Origin: Bacteroidota bacterium
GTDB taxonomy: Bacteria > Bacteroidota > Bacteroidia > B-17B0 > Aurantibacillaceae
NCBI GenBank assembly: GCA_025362395.1
Contig: JANYGK010000009.1
Span: 62,001 to 126,000 of the forward strand
Direction: 5' to 3'
DNA: 64,000 nt
The position numbers and the translations under genes are program-made. This document shows, piece by piece, positions 52,806 to 64,000 of the stretch. Position 1 is the stretch's first letter. Each line of letters begins with the position of its first letter. A model generated the notes under the pieces. That model saw only the letters and a list, made by a program, of their open reading frames with translations. It did not search any database and had not been told where the DNA came from.

Positions 52806-54921
52806 CTTTATCAGTTCAAAATTTTATATCCTTAGTCTTTGTATCAGCATGTGTTTTTTAACACACGCCCAAAATGATACCGTGAAAACTAAAAACAATG
52901 AGCAGGTAGAGGATATGATCAATCAAAATATTGAGCTGTTGTCAGAACAGCTTCAATCTGAAGAAGGCGATCTGTCGAGCCTGACAGATGTTTGGAATTA
53001 CTATAAGAAAAATCCGTTGAATTTAAACCGTGCAAAAAAAGAAGAGTTGCAGGAGTTGCAATTGCTGAATGACATCCAGGTAAATAATTTATTAAAGCAT
53101 CGCGAAAAAAACGGGTTTATGATCAGCATTTATGAGCTGCAAAGCATTGAAGATTTTGATCTCGTAACCATTAAAAAAATTCTGCCGTTTGTGTATGTGA
53201 GCGATAATTTTAATTCAGCCTTTTTTAGCGTCAAGGAAATGTTTAAGGACGGTAAACATGAAGTAGTGATGCGGTATCAAAGAATAGTAGAAAAACAATC
53301 AGGTTATAACTTTCCTGACAGCATTAAATTAAAAAAACCAAACTCTTATTATTTAGGAGACCCGAATCGTGTATTTGCCAGGTACCGGTTTCAATATAAT
53401 AACAATGTATCCTTTGCTCTTAGCGGTGAGAAAGACGCGGGCGAACAATTTTTCAGGGGGACACAAAAACAAGGGTTCGATTTTTACAGTGGGCATATTG
53501 CCGTTAAAAATATCAGGTTTATTAAAACGCTTGTAGTCGGCGATTACCAAGCAACATTTGGCCAGGGTTTAACTATATGGCAAGGGTTTGCATTCGGCAA
53601 ATCGTCTTCACCGATGAATGTTAAACGTTTCGGTTACGGAATAAAACCGTATTATTCGTTTGATGAGAACCGTTTTTTTAGAGGAGTAGCCGCTACGGTG
53701 CGCTACAAAGCATTTGAATTTACGGGCATGGCTTCTCACAAAAATATAGATGCCAATGCCATTGCAACAGACACCCTTAATAACGGTGAAATTGATGTGG
53801 TTGGCATCAGCAGCTTGGAAGCCGGGGGAATGCATAATACAAATTCTTTAATAGCCGACAAAAGAGCCATTAAGCAAACTGTTTTTGGAGGTAATGCCGC
53901 GTTTAATAACAGAAGCTTGCATGTTGGCATAACAGCGCAAAGCACGCACTTAAGCGCAGAGCTTATTAAGTTGTCCACTATTTATAACCAATACGATTAC
54001 CGGGGCAAAGCAAATTTTGTTGGAGGAATAGATTATAATTATGTGTTTAAAAACGTGAACCTGTTTGGCGAATATGCAGGCAGTTCGAGCACCGGCAAGG
54101 CTTTTTGCCAGGGAGTAATTGTTGCACTCGATCCTAAGCTGACCTTTACGGCGCACTATCGTAATTTTGATCGCAACTTTCAAAATTTATTCGGCAACGC
54201 TATTTCTGAAAACACTTTACCACAAAATGAAAAAAGCATATACATTGGTATGGAAGCTAAACTATTCAGAAATCTTACCTTTTCGGTATATCTTGATCAA
54301 TATAAATTTTCATGGATAAAAGCGGGTGTCAGCGCGCCATCGAACGGAAGAGATATTTTTGCACAGCTTAATTATGCGCCCAATAAAAAAATGGATATGT
54401 ATATACGATTCAGGCACCGCACTAAATTTGAGAACAACAGTACGGATAATGTGTATGAATACATTGTACCCTATATACAAACTAATTACCGGTACAATGT
54501 ATCGGCGCAGCTTACACCTGAACTTAAATTTAAAAGCCGTATTGAATATACGCATGTCGAAAAATTAAATGATCCCGGTGATAACGGCGTTGCACTGATC
54601 CAAGACCTTATCTATAAAAAATTAAAATTCCCATTCTCTTTTACCTTGCGTTATGCGGTGTTTGATACTAAAAGTTACGACAGCCGCGTTTACGCTTTCG
54701 AAAACGATGTGCTTTACTCTTACTCTGTACCGGCATTATATTATAAAGGACAACGCGCTTACTTTTTGGTAAACTGGGACATTACCCGCAAGTTTGAGAT
54801 CTGGATACGTTTGGCAAGAACTATTTACGACAATCAAACTGTTATATCAGCGGGAAGTTTAAATGAAATTAATGCCAATCATAAAACGGAAGTTAAGCTG
54901 CAGGCAAGATTTAAGTTTTAA
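52792..54921 (+). CDS. Helix-hairpin-helix domain protein with outer-membrane barrel
   Basis: The ATG at 52849 leaves a truncated signal (MCFLTHAQ). Reading upstream in frame gives a perfect signal peptide starting at CTG 52792 (LKNYSFISSKFYILS, hydrophobic core to THAQ), and an in-frame TAA lies just before. I therefore use 52792, 14 nt inside the preceding gene. The mature protein has an acidic linker and two helix-hairpin-helix units (about 70-135: NLNRAKKEELQELQLLND, then NNLLKHREKNGF and IYELQSIEDF) like ComEA DNA-binding domains. About 550 residues of barrel strands follow, ending EVKLQARFKF. It is a conserved but uncharacterised Bacteroidota architecture. DNA binding at the surface is an inference. 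Confidence 0.85.
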   Translation: MKNYSFISSKFYILSLCISMCFLTHAQNDTVKTKNNEQVEDMINQNIELLSEQLQSEEGDLSSLTDVWNYYKKNPLNLNRAKKEELQELQLLNDIQVNNLLKHREKNGFMISIYELQSIEDFDLVTIKKILPFVYVSDNFNSAFFSVKEMFKDGKHEVVMRYQRIVEKQSGYNFPDSIKLKKPNSYYLGDPNRVFARYRFQYNNNVSFALSGEKDAGEQFFRGTQKQGFDFYSGHIAVKNIRFIKTLVVGDYQATFGQGLTIWQGFAFGKSSSPMNVKRFGYGIKPYYSFDENRFFRGVAATVRYKAFEFTGMASHKNIDANAIATDTLNNGEIDVVGISSLEAGGMHNTNSLIADKRAIKQTVFGGNAAFNNRSLHVGITAQSTHLSAELIKLSTIYNQYDYRGKANFVGGIDYNYVFKNVNLFGEYAGSSSTGKAFCQGVIVALDPKLTFTAHYRNFDRNFQNLFGNAISENTLPQNEKSIYIGMEAKLFRNLTFSVYLDQYKFSWIKAGVSAPSNGRDIFAQLNYAPNKKMDMYIRFRHRTKFENNSTDNVYEYIVPYIQTNYRYNVSAQLTPELKFKSRIEYTHVEKLNDPGDNGVALIQDLIYKKLKFPFSFTLRYAVFDTKSYDSRVYAFENDVLYSYSVPALYYKGQRAYFLVNWDITRKFEIWIRLARTIYDNQTVISAGSLNEINANHKTEVKLQARFKF

Positions 54922-54940: not shown

Positions 54941-55360
54941 ACATAAAACTACGGATGAATTTTAAAAACTACCGGGGCATTCATAAAACTACCGGGGCAT
55001 TCATAAAACTACCGTAGCATTCAAAAAACTACTGCTGAATTCATAAATAAACTGCTGAATTCATAAATAAACTCTTGCATTCATAAAACTACTGCTGAAT
55101 CTAAAAATAAACCGCTGAATTCATAAATAAACTATTGAATTCATAAATAAACTGTTGAATTTATAAAATTACCGTTGCGTTCATAAAACTACCGTTGCAT
55201 TCATAAATAAACTGCTGAATTCATAAAACTACCGTTGCATTCATAAATAAACTGCTGAATTCATAAATAAACTGCTGAATTGATAAAACTACGGATGAAT
55301 TCAAAAAAATACCGGTGCATTCATAAATAAACTACGGCATTCATAAAACTACAGTTGCAC
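54941..55360. repeat. Tandem array of 21 x 20-bp repeats
   Basis: Twenty-one consecutive units, each exactly 20 bp, start 19 bp after the stop of the helix-hairpin-helix/barrel gene. Two unit types intermix: A, TCATAAAACTACCGTTGCAT, and B, TCATAAATAAACTGCTGAAT. Units at 55041, 55201, 55241 and 55261 are identical type B, and those at 55181 and 55221 are identical type A. Edge units (54941-54980, 55281-55320) are more diverged. There are no spacers, so it is not a CRISPR array. The period is not a multiple of three and all plus-strand frames carry stops, so it is non-coding on that strand. A protein-binding array, a minisatellite or an RNA element are possible. Confidence 0.9.
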
Positions 55361-55678
55361 ATAAAGATTATTTTTTGCGTTTTAAACTTAACTTACTTAC
55401 CGGTTATGCGCTAAAAACAACCGGTTATAAAATTGATTCAGCTAAGTTTTGTTAATGGTGTACTTAAACACAATACGCCGCGTTACAGGTAAAAACGTTT
55501 CAATGCGGAACGCTTTATCATTTAAACGTAACACCGCTTACAGAGTTTAAAAAAAGAAGGGATTGTAAATAAAATTTAGTTTACACCGCAAGTTCCAAAG
55601 CCTACTTGTTCCCAAGCAAACGACTTTAATTGTCCCGAGTTAATTAAAATCATTTTAAATCTTTTAAAATCTAACACC
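55361..55678. other. Intergenic region between the 20-bp array and the fibronectin-III gene
   Basis: 318 bp with no gene. ACCGGTTAT occurs twice, at 55399-55407 and 55420-55428 (21-bp period). I find no good TAnnTTTG element close to the ATG at 55679, although the run 55567-55590 is AT-rich. Together with the array, this makes the longest gene-free stretch of the window (757 bp). Confidence 0.5.
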
Positions 55679-56269
55679 ATGAACTCAATAAAATTGTCTT
55701 TGAACTATGAACAGTACGATCCAAGCGGATTAGCTGTATTCGGTAAACACATCTCAACCTGTATGACCGGTAATGCAAACATGCCGAGCGCGATAAGTGT
55801 TTTGCCCTTGCTCGATACGGCAGTGGTAAATTTAACCAACGCTATTAATAACCAACACCCCGATACTGTAATTATAGACGCAAGGGTAAGAGATGTAAGA
55901 CAAAGACTCAAAGTTTTAATACGCCTGGCTGAAATGGACGGCGCTAACACTGAAGAAATTGCCTTAAGCAGCGGCTTCGATTTAAGAATGCCGACTATTC
56001 GTAAACCACAGGTGTTTTCTGTAAAGCAGGGTTTATTAAGCGGTACGGCAGACCTTAGCTGTTCTGTTTACAGGAACTCCGCTTACATTTGGGAAATGAT
56101 CAGTGATCCTATTGATACAAACACCTGGTCGGTATACGATACAAGCGTTGTATCAACCCAACAGGTAACAGGTTTAATGCCCGGTAATAAATATTGGTTC
56201 AGGGTTAAAACGGTGTTATCAAAAAGCAAGCTGCCGTACAGCGATCCATACATGATCCACATTGTTTAA
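55679..56269 (+). CDS. Fibronectin type III domain protein
   Basis: A 196-residue protein without a signal peptide. The N-terminal helical part (1-100: SLNYEQYDPSGLAVFGKHIS, CMTGNANMPSAIS, IIDARVRDVRQRLKVLIRLAEMDG) belongs to a bacterial family whose members begin KLSL... and contain TGN-A-N-[FM]-P. It is followed by one fibronectin-III domain (about 110-196, ending GLMPGNKYWFRVKTVLSKSK). The function of such proteins is unknown. This one stands alone behind the 20-bp tandem array and before a terminator. Confidence 0.85.
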   Translation: MNSIKLSLNYEQYDPSGLAVFGKHISTCMTGNANMPSAISVLPLLDTAVVNLTNAINNQHPDTVIIDARVRDVRQRLKVLIRLAEMDGANTEEIALSSGFDLRMPTIRKPQVFSVKQGLLSGTADLSCSVYRNSAYIWEMISDPIDTNTWSVYDTSVVSTQQVTGLMPGNKYWFRVKTVLSKSKLPYSDPYMIHIV

Positions 56270-56324: not shown

Positions 56325-58316
56325 TTATAATTTAATCCCTATCATCAACACATCATCTACCTGCTCGTAGTCTTTTTTCCAGTTCATAAAAGAAGATTCA
56401 ATTTTTTCATGTTGTGCTTTAGCGGGTAGCTCCGCAATGGAAATTAATAATTCTTTCAGGCTTTTAGACATGAATTTTTTACCTTCTTTGCCGCCGAACT
56501 GGTCGGCATAACCATCGGTAAATAGATAGATGGAATCATTTTTTTGTAAAGAAATTTTAGTCGTTGTAAATTCTTTATCATCGTGCGTAAAGCCTGCAAT
56601 GGCTGTTTTATCGGGCCTGTACTCTAAAAGTTCATTCTGCCTGATGATATATACAGGCCTGTTTGCTCCCGAAAATTCAACTTCGGTTAGGGCACCGTTA
56701 AATTTTAAAATAGCAATGTCCATTCCGTCTTTTTGTTTCGACTCGTCGGAATGTTGTTTTAAAACCTGTTTGATCTGTTTGTTTAAAAAGGAAAGGATTT
56801 TACCGGGTTCAGATATGTTTTTTTCAAATACAGCCTGCACTATTTTATCTATCCCGATAATACTCATTAAGGCTCCCGGAACCCCATGCCCGGTACAATC
56901 GGCAGCTATACAATAAAAATAATCATTTACCTTGCTGAACCAATAAAAATCGCCGCTCACCACATCTTTGGGCTTATAATAAATAAAGCTTTGTTGAAAC
57001 ACCTCACTTAAATCTTTAATATGAGGTAATATTGCCTGTTGAATTCCTTTAGCGTATTGTATGCTGTTATCTATTTCCTGTTTTTTTTCCGCTATGATAT
57101 GGTTTTGCGCCGCTAATTGAATATTTGTAAATTGCTTTTGTTTATTTTGCCTGTACAGTAAAACTACCGCAATAATAACTATCAGGGCAACAGCCAACAG
57201 AATAAAAATAAAATAGATGTTTTTTTTATTTCTTAATTCCTGTATTTCATTGGCCTGTTTCAATTGGCCGACATTTGCTTCCGCTTTTTCAAGCGAGTAG
57301 CTGCCTTGTAAATTACTTATGCTTGTAGAATATGCTTCTTTATCAAGCTCTTCTTTTAAGTTCATAAATTTTTCATAATAGCTGTATGCCTTTTCAAAGT
57401 TTTTTAAATTATAATACGCTTTTGCCAACCCCTTTAATGCCATAAGCCGTATATCTTTAATATCGTGCCTTATATTATAACTATTAACAAAATCAAATTT
57501 AGTAATGGCATCTGCTGTTTTACCTAATTCTAAATTACATAAACCCATATTAAGGTTACAGATGATGATGCTTGAGGAATCATTTATTTTTTGATGGATC
57601 TGCAGGCTTTTTTCATTGTAGAAATTAGCCGATCTATAATCTTTTTCTACATAAAACAGATCGCCTAAATTACCATAGAGCCTTCCCATCTCAGAAAACA
57701 AACCTGCTTTTTTTGCGGCATCTATCCCTTTATTAAAATAGACCAGCGCTGAGTCAAAATATTGTTTTTTTCCATTCGCGAGGTTCCTGTCGGCATAATA
57801 ACTTGCCATGGCATTATAAATTTTCATTAAGCCCGACGTATCCCGGCATTTTTCAAACAGGGCTAATGATTTATAGAGGTATTTATCTTCTTTGTAATTA
57901 TGCTGCTGAATACAAAGGATCCACCCGATGTTATATAAGGAAAAGGCGATCCCTTTTTCATTATGAATGGAATCATTTATACGGTATGCTTTAAAGTAGT
58001 TTTGCTGAGCTTTATCGTAATCGGAATGGAACCAATACGCATCGGCTATACAGTTATAGGATGTAGCCATCCCCTTTGTATAGTTTAATTTTTTAGAAAG
58101 TTCGAGTGCTTCGTTAGCATAGTTTATGGCTTCTTTAAACGCATTATTACTAAGGTTATAAGAAAGAGAAATTAACTTTGTAATTTTTAAGGTATCCGTA
58201 TCCTGTAATCCCGCAATTTCAAATTTAAGCGCTTTAATATTCTTAAGGTTTTGAGCCGAAAGAATGAAATGGAAAGAAAAGAAAAGGAAGAAATATAAAA
58301 AACGAAATTGATGCAT
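56325..58316 (-). CDS. TPR sensor with SpoIIE-type PP2C phosphatase
   Basis: 663 residues: a signal peptide (to about LSAQ, residue 22), a periplasmic TPR superhelix (about 40-345; AINYANEALELSKKLNYTKGMATSYNCIADAYW and similar), a coiled linker, one membrane segment (about 370-392, YFIFILLAVALIVIIAVVLLY), a second coiled coil and a cytoplasmic PP2C domain (about 435-663) with SGDFYW, DCTGHGVPGALMS, DGMDIAI, FTDGYADQFGG and QVDDVLMIG. A periplasmic event would be relayed to dephosphorylation of a cytoplasmic Ser/Thr-phosphoprotein. It shares the SI[QN]YAKGIQ linker motif with the phosphatases at 37393 and 61055. Confidence 0.92.
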   Translation of the reverse strand: MHQFRFLYFFLFFSFHFILSAQNLKNIKALKFEIAGLQDTDTLKITKLISLSYNLSNNAFKEAINYANEALELSKKLNYTKGMATSYNCIADAYWFHSDYDKAQQNYFKAYRINDSIHNEKGIAFSLYNIGWILCIQQHNYKEDKYLYKSLALFEKCRDTSGLMKIYNAMASYYADRNLANGKKQYFDSALVYFNKGIDAAKKAGLFSEMGRLYGNLGDLFYVEKDYRSANFYNEKSLQIHQKINDSSSIIICNLNMGLCNLELGKTADAITKFDFVNSYNIRHDIKDIRLMALKGLAKAYYNLKNFEKAYSYYEKFMNLKEELDKEAYSTSISNLQGSYSLEKAEANVGQLKQANEIQELRNKKNIYFIFILLAVALIVIIAVVLLYRQNKQKQFTNIQLAAQNHIIAEKKQEIDNSIQYAKGIQQAILPHIKDLSEVFQQSFIYYKPKDVVSGDFYWFSKVNDYFYCIAADCTGHGVPGALMSIIGIDKIVQAVFEKNISEPGKILSFLNKQIKQVLKQHSDESKQKDGMDIAILKFNGALTEVEFSGANRPVYIIRQNELLEYRPDKTAIAGFTHDDKEFTTTKISLQKNDSIYLFTDGYADQFGGKEGKKFMSKSLKELLISIAELPAKAQHEKIESSFMNWKKDYEQVDDVLMIGIKL

Positions 58317-61054: not shown

Positions 61055-64000
61055 TTAAAACCTGATACCCATCACACATACATCGTCTGTTTGCTCGGTT
61101 GCGCCTTTCCAATTTTCAAATTTTTCTTCCATAATTTTTTTCTGCATAGGTAAAGGCATAGTACAGACTAGGGCGAGGATCTCTTTAAATCGTTTATAAT
61201 TAAACTTTTTATCTTTTTCTCCTCCAAACTGATCCGCATAGCCGTCAGAAAATAAATAAATCATATCATCTTTTTCAAGATCAAAGGCTTGCAAATTATA
61301 ATTGACCGTATGATCGGTTACCGACCCGATGGCTTGCTTATTGGGTTTTAATACAATTAATTGGGGCGCATTAGCTTTTTTACGATACACATATACAGGA
61401 TTATTTGCCCCTGAAAAATAAAGCTTACTTGCCGTATAATCAATCCCTATCAATGCAATATCCATCCCGTCCCTCATCCTGTTTTTAAGCGTACCCGACT
61501 GATTAAGGTTAGCGGTAATATTTGCATTTAAAAAATCTAACGCTTCGGCCGGCGAATTAACGGACTCTTCCGTAAGCGATTGTTTTAAGAAATTGCAGGC
61601 TACTATGCTTAAAAATGCACCGGGCACTCCGTGGCCTGTACAGTCTGCTACCGCTGCCAATGAAAACCGCCTTGGATTATTACCGCTTGTTGTGGTTGAA
61701 GCTGCCCAATAAAAATCGCCGCTTACAATATCTTTAGGTTTATATAAAATAAAATAATTAGAATCAAATAATTCATCGAGCATTTCTATTTGAGGCAAAA
61801 GTGAGTCCTGGATACGTTTGGCATAATTGATACTATCTGTAATATCTTTGTTTCTATGCTCAAGCTCAATTTTTATTTTTTCCGCTTGTTCTTTTTCTTT
61901 TTGTAATAAATATGTTTTTTCCCTTACTTTTTTCTGTAATAATTGCTGAGCTTTTCGTAAGCTTTGCGTTCTCCAATACACAATTGCATAGGTTAATAAT
62001 ACAATGAATATAGTGATGATAACATAGAACCATATTTTTTTCCAAACCGGTTCATTTATTTTAAGTATTACTTCGGCAGGCGATGTGCTCCATAAGCCTT
62101 CGCTGTTACAGGCCAAAACCTGGAAAACATATTCACCGTCGCTTAAATTTGGGTAATCAACAAATCCCGAAGTTGTTATTTTCCAAAGTGAATCAATACC
62201 GATAAGCCTGTATTTATATTTTATTTTTTCGGGATTTATAAATGAGATCCCTAAAAAATCAATGCGTACCGTATAATAACCATATTTTTTTTCAATCCTT
62301 TTTTTGGAATTATAGGTGTCTTTGTCAATAATAACTTTTACGATTGATACTTTAGGCTCTACCCTGTTTTCTTTCTGTATTTCAAAATTATAATGAACAA
62401 TGCCTTTAATGGTGCCAAACCAAACATTGCCTACGCTGTCTTTATATAGAGCATTTAAATTATTTTCAACAAACAATAAGCCTTCATTCTCCGTTATGCC
62501 GCGAAACTCTTTTAAAAACGCTTTTTTCTCGCTTAACCCGTTTTTATGGGTAACCCAAACTGAATTGTTATTATCCGTAAGTATTCCGTAACAGTAGTTC
62601 GATAATAAACCGGATGACACTCTATAGTTAACAAATATTTTCCCGTTATATTTAAATACACCATCCCCCTCGGTTGCTATCCAAATAATTCCGGTTTTAT
62701 CTTCATATACCCCGTTTATATTAAATGATCTTAATTCATCAATATCTTTAAAAAAGGTAAACTTTGAATCTTTTAAAAAATAAGGCGGTGACCCGTGCGA
62801 TGAGATCCACAGCCTGTCTTTACTATCTAAAAATAAGTTTACAATGTTATTATGCAATAACCCATCAAGCGTAGTGATTATTTTTATAGTTTTTGAATAC
62901 TGATTATATGTGTACAACCCTTCATTTGTACCTATTATTATATTTCCATTATGTCCTGCAATAATTGTGTTAACCGATAGATTAGCAAGTGCGTGCAGTT
63001 TCGAAAAATTTTCAAATTTTAAAGTGGTAGTATTTAAGGTATAAAGGCCTTTCGAGTTAGTACCGATCCATAATGTTTCCGCACCGTCAAACATAAGGGC
63101 GTTTATTTTATCTGTTACAAAACCGGTATGCGAATCAAATAATTTAAAAGACTTGCGGGAAGGAATAAAGCTTCCCAAACCTGTTTCATTTCCTATCCAT
63201 ACTACACCGCGTTTGTCAATAGCAATGTTTTTTATATCCGGATTTTTTAGTCCGTCCTTATCATTATAAAACGTCAGTTTTTCAATCGGCTTTTCAATGA
63301 GCCCGGCACCAAAAGTCCCAAACCACATGTTACCTTCAAAATCCTGAAATATAGATTGTATATATTCATTTTTTAATCCGTTATTCTCATCAATTGTTGA
63401 AATATTATAATTTATGTATTGATTTCCCGAGAAAGTCAATTTCCTCAATCCTTCACCGAATAAGCTGATCCATAAATTATTTGAACGATCCGCGTAGATC
63501 GCTGAAATAATAATGTTTTGAGAATTTAATTGAGTTAATATGTGATTAAATGGAAAGTATGTATCATCCAAACTTCTGATCCCATAAACACCATCACTTT
63601 CGGTTGATACCCAAAACGATTTTTTTGTAGCGTTTACAGGAATAATTTGCTTTACATTTTTCCCTTTAAATTCCTCAAGTTCACTAATGCTTTCTGAATT
63701 AGTATTTAACACATAAGCGCCTTCGGGTGTTGCTGCTATTATATGTCCTGATGCATCAAACCGGAATGAGTTTACGGAATTGATGCCCCTATAGTGTTTT
63801 TGTTTTAAATTAAATAAGGTATCAACTGTAAAAAAGCCGCCGCTTGTAGCTATCCATATTTTGCGATACTTATCTTCAGAAATTTGGTTTACTTTAAAAT
63901 CCTTAATACCGGCATTTTTCAAGGAATTAAATTTCCCGTTCTTTATATATGAAACTCCATTTTGCGATTGCCCAAGCCAATAAATATTTCGTGTATCGAG
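61055..64000 (-). CDS. Beta-propeller (two-component-regulator type) sensor with SpoIIE-type PP2C phosphatase, 5' end outside the window
   Basis: The frame is open to the last base, and the residues encoded at 63923-64000 continue the propeller (IYWLGQSQNGVSYIKNGKF), so the start lies beyond the window; the TTG at 63922 is not the start. Visible domains: at least ten propeller blades ([IV]W[IF]GT-x-x-x-GL-x-x-Y and similar), a Y_Y_Y domain (YKYRLIGIDSLW ... SDGEYVFQVLACNSEG), one membrane segment (WFYVIITIFIVLLTYAIVYW), a coiled coil with DSINYAKRIQDSLLP, and PP2C with SGDFYW, DCTGHGVPGAFLS, DGMDIAL, FSDGYADQFGG and QTDDVCVMG. It is the third SpoIIE sensor in the window. The periplasmic ligand is unknown. 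Confidence 0.92.
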   Translation of the reverse strand, partial: LDTRNIYWLGQSQNGVSYIKNGKFNSLKNAGIKDFKVNQISEDKYRKIWIATSGGFFTVDTLFNLKQKHYRGINSVNSFRFDASGHIIAATPEGAYVLNTNSESISELEEFKGKNVKQIIPVNATKKSFWVSTESDGVYGIRSLDDTYFPFNHILTQLNSQNIIISAIYADRSNNLWISLFGEGLRKLTFSGNQYINYNISTIDENNGLKNEYIQSIFQDFEGNMWFGTFGAGLIEKPIEKLTFYNDKDGLKNPDIKNIAIDKRGVVWIGNETGLGSFIPSRKSFKLFDSHTGFVTDKINALMFDGAETLWIGTNSKGLYTLNTTTLKFENFSKLHALANLSVNTIIAGHNGNIIIGTNEGLYTYNQYSKTIKIITTLDGLLHNNIVNLFLDSKDRLWISSHGSPPYFLKDSKFTFFKDIDELRSFNINGVYEDKTGIIWIATEGDGVFKYNGKIFVNYRVSSGLLSNYCYGILTDNNNSVWVTHKNGLSEKKAFLKEFRGITENEGLLFVENNLNALYKDSVGNVWFGTIKGIVHYNFEIQKENRVEPKVSIVKVIIDKDTYNSKKRIEKKYGYYTVRIDFLGISFINPEKIKYKYRLIGIDSLWKITTSGFVDYPNLSDGEYVFQVLACNSEGLWSTSPAEVILKINEPVWKKIWFYVIITIFIVLLTYAIVYWRTQSLRKAQQLLQKKVREKTYLLQKEKEQAEKIKIELEHRNKDITDSINYAKRIQDSLLPQIEMLDELFDSNYFILYKPKDIVSGDFYWAASTTTSGNNPRRFSLAAVADCTGHGVPGAFLSIVACNFLKQSLTEESVNSPAEALDFLNANITANLNQSGTLKNRMRDGMDIALIGIDYTASKLYFSGANNPVYVYRKKANAPQLIVLKPNKQAIGSVTDHTVNYNLQAFDLEKDDMIYLFSDGYADQFGGEKDKKFNYKRFKEILALVCTMPLPMQKKIMEEKFENWKGATEQTDDVCVMGIRF

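Follow-up and report, generated by a model that had tools for sequence, protein, structure and literature searches.

FnIII-family genes across the class Bacteroidia usually carry, on their upstream side, a non-coding tandem array with a period of 20–22 bp, whose units are unrelated in sequence between loci and whose period clusters on the gene tree. The array analyzed here is situated in a stretch of 64,000 nucleotides from a Bacteroidota bacterium (hereafter the window) and belongs to the 5′ region of a gene encoding a fibronectin type III (FnIII) protein. Such arrays, fixed in period and variable in sequence, are strongly associated with the upstream side of this gene family. For the underlying mechanism, we infer a putative protein-binding platform from where the arrays lie, how their units are spaced, their dyad symmetry and the absence of indels.

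Organization of the window array

The array is an unbroken run of 21 units, each exactly 20 bp long and free of indels (Table 1). An earlier note on this DNA had described the same uninterrupted run, beginning 19 bp past the stop of the upstream gene; the coordinates and the TRF call (20.5 copies, 54942–55352) confirm the former, and the stop codon of the upstream barrel gene at 54921 confirms the latter. Lag-20 identity within the array rises to 0.76–0.80, while the window as a whole averages 0.27 (sd 0.04). Seventeen of the 21 units are distinct and their pairwise identity averages 0.74, with diverged units at the ends and a homogenized middle. The two intermixed unit types distinguished earlier (ACT or TAA at columns 8–10) are the ends of one mixture rather than two clean classes. 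The region has a GC content of 30% and is closed in all six frames; it is thus non-coding, and coding repeats are ruled out. No Rfam family scored above its gathering threshold in a search of the array.

Table 1 Features of the FnIII locus in the window
Feature	Position	Strand	Remarks
Tandem array, 21 × 20 bp, core TCATAAA-N3-AC-N4-G-NAT	54941..55360	+	Distal element 5′ of the FnIII gene; contig C35 has a paralogous array and right flank; arrays upstream of FnIII orthologues and paralogues
Direct-repeat box ACCGGTTA-N13-ACCGGTTA, half-sites 21 bp apart	55399..55427	+	8 exact sites in the genome, 6 with an array directly upstream
CGTTACA, candidate −10-like element (family form CGTTATA, often after TGTAAC)	55481..55487	+	One mismatch to the family form; predicted
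FnIII-family gene, 196 aa, N-terminal helical bundle and C-terminal FnIII domain	55679..56269	+	AlphaFold2 model, PDB matches, weak Pfam fn3

The window comes from a draft genome of 4.08 Mb in 118 contigs, where its contig is designated C25. A genome search with the 20-mer pattern returned 41 forward, 0 reverse and 0 control matches. Window-type units occur in ordered arrays only, at C35:1414–1985, C36:39908–40145 (a contig end) and C2:1–85 (a contig start), with no scattered single copies; since some arrays fall on contig ends, array copy numbers in this draft are uncertain. C25 and C35 share the array together with approximately 140 bp on its right at 80% identity, and in C35 the right flank continues into a decayed FnIII gene copy. 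The 49 units of these two arrays are all exactly 20 bp long and differ by approximately 68 substitutions (minimum spanning tree) and zero indels, with invariant columns AAA (5–7), A (11) and G (17).

Other repeats were observed elsewhere in the same draft and in the additional loci inspected; array counts for the genome as a whole were drawn from a 464-kb sample. Contig C42 (L064:6688–7212) has a 21-bp array past the rng terminator, with a related core (ATTCATAAAACTTC), between convergent genes and with no FnIII gene near. Two further 21-bp arrays (L179:15479–15726 and L192:17695–17770) have GAACAGGGAATA in common, with no FnIII gene beside either. In addition, a dispersed repeat, GAGATTGCTTCGTGCCTCGCAATGACGA, is present in several copies around a GIY-YIG-like gene (L192:17800–18620).

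The FnIII gene as the associated neighbor

The gene upstream of the array, whose product carries helix-hairpin-helix motifs, was found in 31/31 genomes searched, and a 20–22 bp array follows it in 0/28 of the orthologues with readable downstream DNA. Synteny therefore rejects an association with the barrel gene. In relatives, the arrays accompany the downstream FnIII gene instead. A 20-bp array built on a TGCATAAA core immediately precedes an orthologue of the FnIII gene in a second species of the same genus (G014), and FnIII paralogues in the window genome, as well as relatives in G001 and G008, also have upstream arrays, composed of different unit sequences. The earlier note had named unordered copies with no conserved neighbor as what would refute its reading; the arrays in relatives do have a conserved neighbor.

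The FnIII gene itself had been described as an orphan, which is incorrect: the draft genome contains six full-length paralogues of it, besides the decayed copy on C35, and the paralogous family reaches up to 17 detected matches per genome. The AlphaFold2 model of the window protein (mean pLDDT 93.5) predicts a helical bundle in the N-terminal part and an FnIII domain in the C-terminal part. Among the PDB matches listed in the structure search, all were to FnIII domains and none to the bundle. The Pfam fn3 match is weak, and no model in Pfam, NCBIfam or PADLOC exceeded its cut-off over the whole protein, fn3 being the most that was recognized; the full-length family is unnamed in these resources. 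No hydrophobic N-terminal segment was evident by eye. Further along the window, on the minus strand, two large proteins (56325–58316 and 61055–63922) that by eye share the same C-terminal SpoIIE/PP2C-like phosphatase region flank the citrate synthase gene.

Survey of FnIII-family loci across Bacteroidia

A set of 98 distinct FnIII-family proteins was assembled from the same taxonomic family and from the class Bacteroidia. The upstream kilobase was scanned at the 91 loci with at least 600 bp of upstream sequence, and an array was called at a lag identity of at least 0.48 (Markov null: 95% below 0.46, maximum 0.49). Upstream arrays were identified at 62/91 loci (68%), in a sample picked by best match rather than at random and in which paralogues from the same genome are not independent. 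Their period was 20 bp in 16 cases, 21 bp in 45 and 22 bp in one, arrays of any other period reached the threshold at only three loci, and about a third of the loci have no clear upstream array. Downstream of FnIII-family genes, a 20–22 bp array was present in 3/94. For comparison, arrays were counted at 9/628 ordinary ORFs, including the window FnIII gene itself and integrase loci, and at 7/134 genes with at least 400 nt of free upstream sequence, again with FnIII and integrase loci among them.

The arrays agree in period and not in sequence. Only 3/1,891 array pairs are similar, and mean identity within arrays falls from 0.55 at the period to 0.30 when the lag is shifted by one base. Mapping the period-20 label onto the gene tree takes 9 changes, compared with a mean of 15.0 for shuffled labels, and 0/500 shuffles were as low; every array in the window's clade of six FnIII genes has 20-bp units. 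These features suggest that the spacing of the arrays, rather than their letters, is kept. Of 43 long 21-bp arrays, 34 are closed in all six frames and are therefore not heptad-coding repeats. Dyad symmetry of the unit exceeded that of column-permuted controls in 29/61 arrays at p<0.05 (Fisher 1e-26), as would be expected of sites bound by dimers; the symmetry of the window array itself is not significant (p=0.52).

Box and promoter elements downstream of the array

Between the window array and the FnIII gene lies a direct-repeat box built from two ACCGGTTA half-sites. Six of its exact genomic sites, the one in the window among them, plus one near-match, stand directly after a 20- or 21-bp array, and the box is also found before FnIII paralogues and orthologues. 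One copy precedes an ExbB-like gene (named by eye), where no clear array is present. The idea that the array units are themselves degenerate ACCGGTTA half-sites is unsupported (p=0.12).

The motif CGTTATA occurs upstream of 23/92 FnIII-family loci, where 3.1 would be expected, and is often preceded by TGTAAC. Promoters recognized by ECF sigma factors have a −35 AAC element and a −10 CGT element separated by approximately 16–17 nt, and the TGTAAC...CGTTATA arrangement at many family loci looks like a promoter of this type. The window copy, CGTTACA, is degenerate.

Integrase loci

Several of the arrays lie 5′ of integrase genes. Such arrays, of 20–22 bp and with other sequences, were identified in G001, G014, G066, G108 and perhaps G039, and no FnIII gene was found near them in the loci scanned. 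In the window genome, L061:136–1269 (C35) encodes an integron/XerA-like integrase, which scores below the curated NCBIfam cut-offs, and L062 (C36) is a contig on which attC-like repeats (GCTAACG...TGTTAGC) separate small genes, among them an ImmA/IrrE-type and PIN-like gene pair. L061 and L062 probably represent a chromosomal integron with its cassettes 3′ of the integrase. A conserved dyad, TGCTAC-N5-GTAGCA, is located approximately 50–60 bp upstream of integrase starts (e.g., L141 and L148). Its N5 layout resembles that of the Bacteroidetes SOS boxes, CTAA-N5-TTAG (PMC8565304), and SOS control of the integrase through this dyad is possible.

Proposed mechanism and alternative explanations

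We propose, with about even confidence for and against, that the array is a helically phased multi-site platform, with roughly two helical turns per site, feeding the predicted FnIII promoter. According to this proposal, the array would make up the portion of the FnIII 5′ regulatory region farthest from the gene, each 20-bp unit being one putative site for a DNA-binding protein. The spacing of about two turns would place all sites on one face of the helix, and 15–25 copies would build an extended nucleoprotein platform, which may cooperate with the ACCGGTTA box in controlling the FnIII promoter. The unit sequences would turn over by recombination, either co-evolving with the binder or being tolerated by it, with the spacing kept. 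The proposal is favored by the excess of upstream arrays at FnIII loci over downstream ones and over ordinary ORFs, the mostly non-coding character of the arrays, the tree-clustered period, the boxes that follow arrays, the lack of indels, the dyad symmetry seen across arrays and the array-free barrel orthologues. Against it, paralogues within one genome have unrelated units, which is hard to reconcile with one protein that recognizes a specific sequence; dyad symmetry is not significant in the window array, and its units are not recognizable as box half-sites; clear arrays are missing from about a third of the FnIII loci; and similar arrays with no FnIII gene are found near rng and 5′ of some integrases. 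The putative binding array suggested in the earlier note is still the best of its options.

A bolder claim, of which we are doubtful, is that the arrays constitute a class-wide cis-element defined by period alone, a 20–22 bp rhythm upstream of FnIII genes in which the letters are free. If true, it would imply that the binder responds to spacing or shape and not to sequence, or else that a dedicated mechanism of amplification regenerates arrays from local DNA. If the association holds, it offers a simple rule that lends itself to counting: in one paralogous gene family, the repeat period is fixed and the repeat sequence is not. It would make testable whether selection acts on promoter-array spacing independently of the letters, and would provide a handle on an uncharacterized FnIII protein family and on the proteins binding its control regions.

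The strongest competitor of the platform, although we consider it unlikely, is a neutral minisatellite produced by replication slippage or unequal exchange where upstream regions are long and free of selection, its period reflecting the amplification mechanism rather than function. The diverged ends and homogenized middle of the window array, the unrelated unit sequences and the arrays found elsewhere, such as those on C42, at L179 and 5′ of some integrases, are consistent with such an origin. It is opposed by the strong upstream bias toward one gene family, the narrow period and its clustering on the gene tree, the zero indels in 49 units, and the rarity of arrays among genes with long free upstream sequence. 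A plain variable minisatellite, as listed in the earlier note, leaves unexplained why unrelated arrays at nearly the same period stand upstream of the same gene family.

The array could instead act as RNA or single-stranded DNA, with transcribed repeats folding into rows of hairpins that regulate the gene or provide a scaffold. Arrays do fold better than column-permuted controls on both strands (mean z −1.63 and −1.37), and the minus strand of the window array reaches z −3.7; dyad symmetry alone, however, would give better folding on both strands. On its plus strand the window array is ordinary (z −0.97), which rejects a structured RNA on the strand of the FnIII gene in the window, and Rfam offers no match. 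Its position ahead of the box and promoter elements probably places the array outside the FnIII transcript. We therefore judge this reading to be quite improbable.

It is very unlikely that the arrays are recombination elements, that is, sites used or left by integron-type integrases that spread FnIII blocks as mobile units. The C35 array lies 144 bp 5′ of the integron/XerA-like integrase, the end of C36 has an integrase 5′ remnant plus a window-type array, an integrase relic on C82 adjoins an FnIII gene, and integrases in other genomes also have 5′ arrays. Most integrase loci, however, have none, so that the arrays were rejected as integrase sites; the attC-like repeats are on the 3′ side of the integrase, no integrase stands beside the window array, and the integrase arrays of the other genomes have no FnIII gene beside them in the loci scanned. 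Finally, a 3′-UTR or downstream element of the barrel gene, which the earlier note had offered and the short distance from the stop codon favors, has a negligible probability given a barrel gene present in every genome searched and array-free in every readable orthologue.

Comparison with known repeat systems

CRISPR arrays consist of repeats of approximately 23–50 bp separated by unique spacers and accompanied by cas genes; the window array, with 20-bp units, no spacers and no cas gene recognized among the neighboring ORFs, is not one of them. Searches for a viral, plasmid or phage origin gave no match in the records searched. Iterons and plasmid partition-site arrays are similar in having head-to-tail repeats of approximately 20 bp, about two helical turns, with a system-specific sequence, and the window array likewise has tandem units of approximately 20 bp in fixed register. 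They differ in having a Rep or Par neighbor, neither of which was recognized among the ORFs beside the window array, whereas the latter is tied to the FnIII gene family on a chromosomal-type contig carrying citrate synthase and DEAD-box helicase genes. LytTR-type operators, which are bound by LytTR regulators, resemble the ACCGGTTA box in their two direct half-sites 21 bp apart; the match of the ACCGGTTA half-site to the LytTR consensus is poor.

Phase-variable promoter repeats and VNTRs, whose copy number differs between strains and switches expression, also consist of tandem repeats upstream of genes. Here, in an analysis covering one genome per species, the unit is 20–22 bp, the array lies upstream of a box and promoter elements, and it is the period, not the sequence, that clusters on the gene-family tree. 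A literature search, with most subscription papers and preprints outside its reach, found no account of FnIII genes with upstream repeats, which is weak evidence of novelty. A parallel in being intergenic direct-repeat arrays upstream of genes is provided by the TAACTGA repeats of Beggiatoaceae, some cyanobacteria and Bacteroidetes, which are long in some Bacteroidetes (PMC4679880). Those repeats are built from one fixed heptamer, mostly lie a few bases from start codons and follow no gene-function pattern (PMC4679880), whereas the FnIII arrays share no sequence, keep a 20–22 bp period and accompany one gene family.
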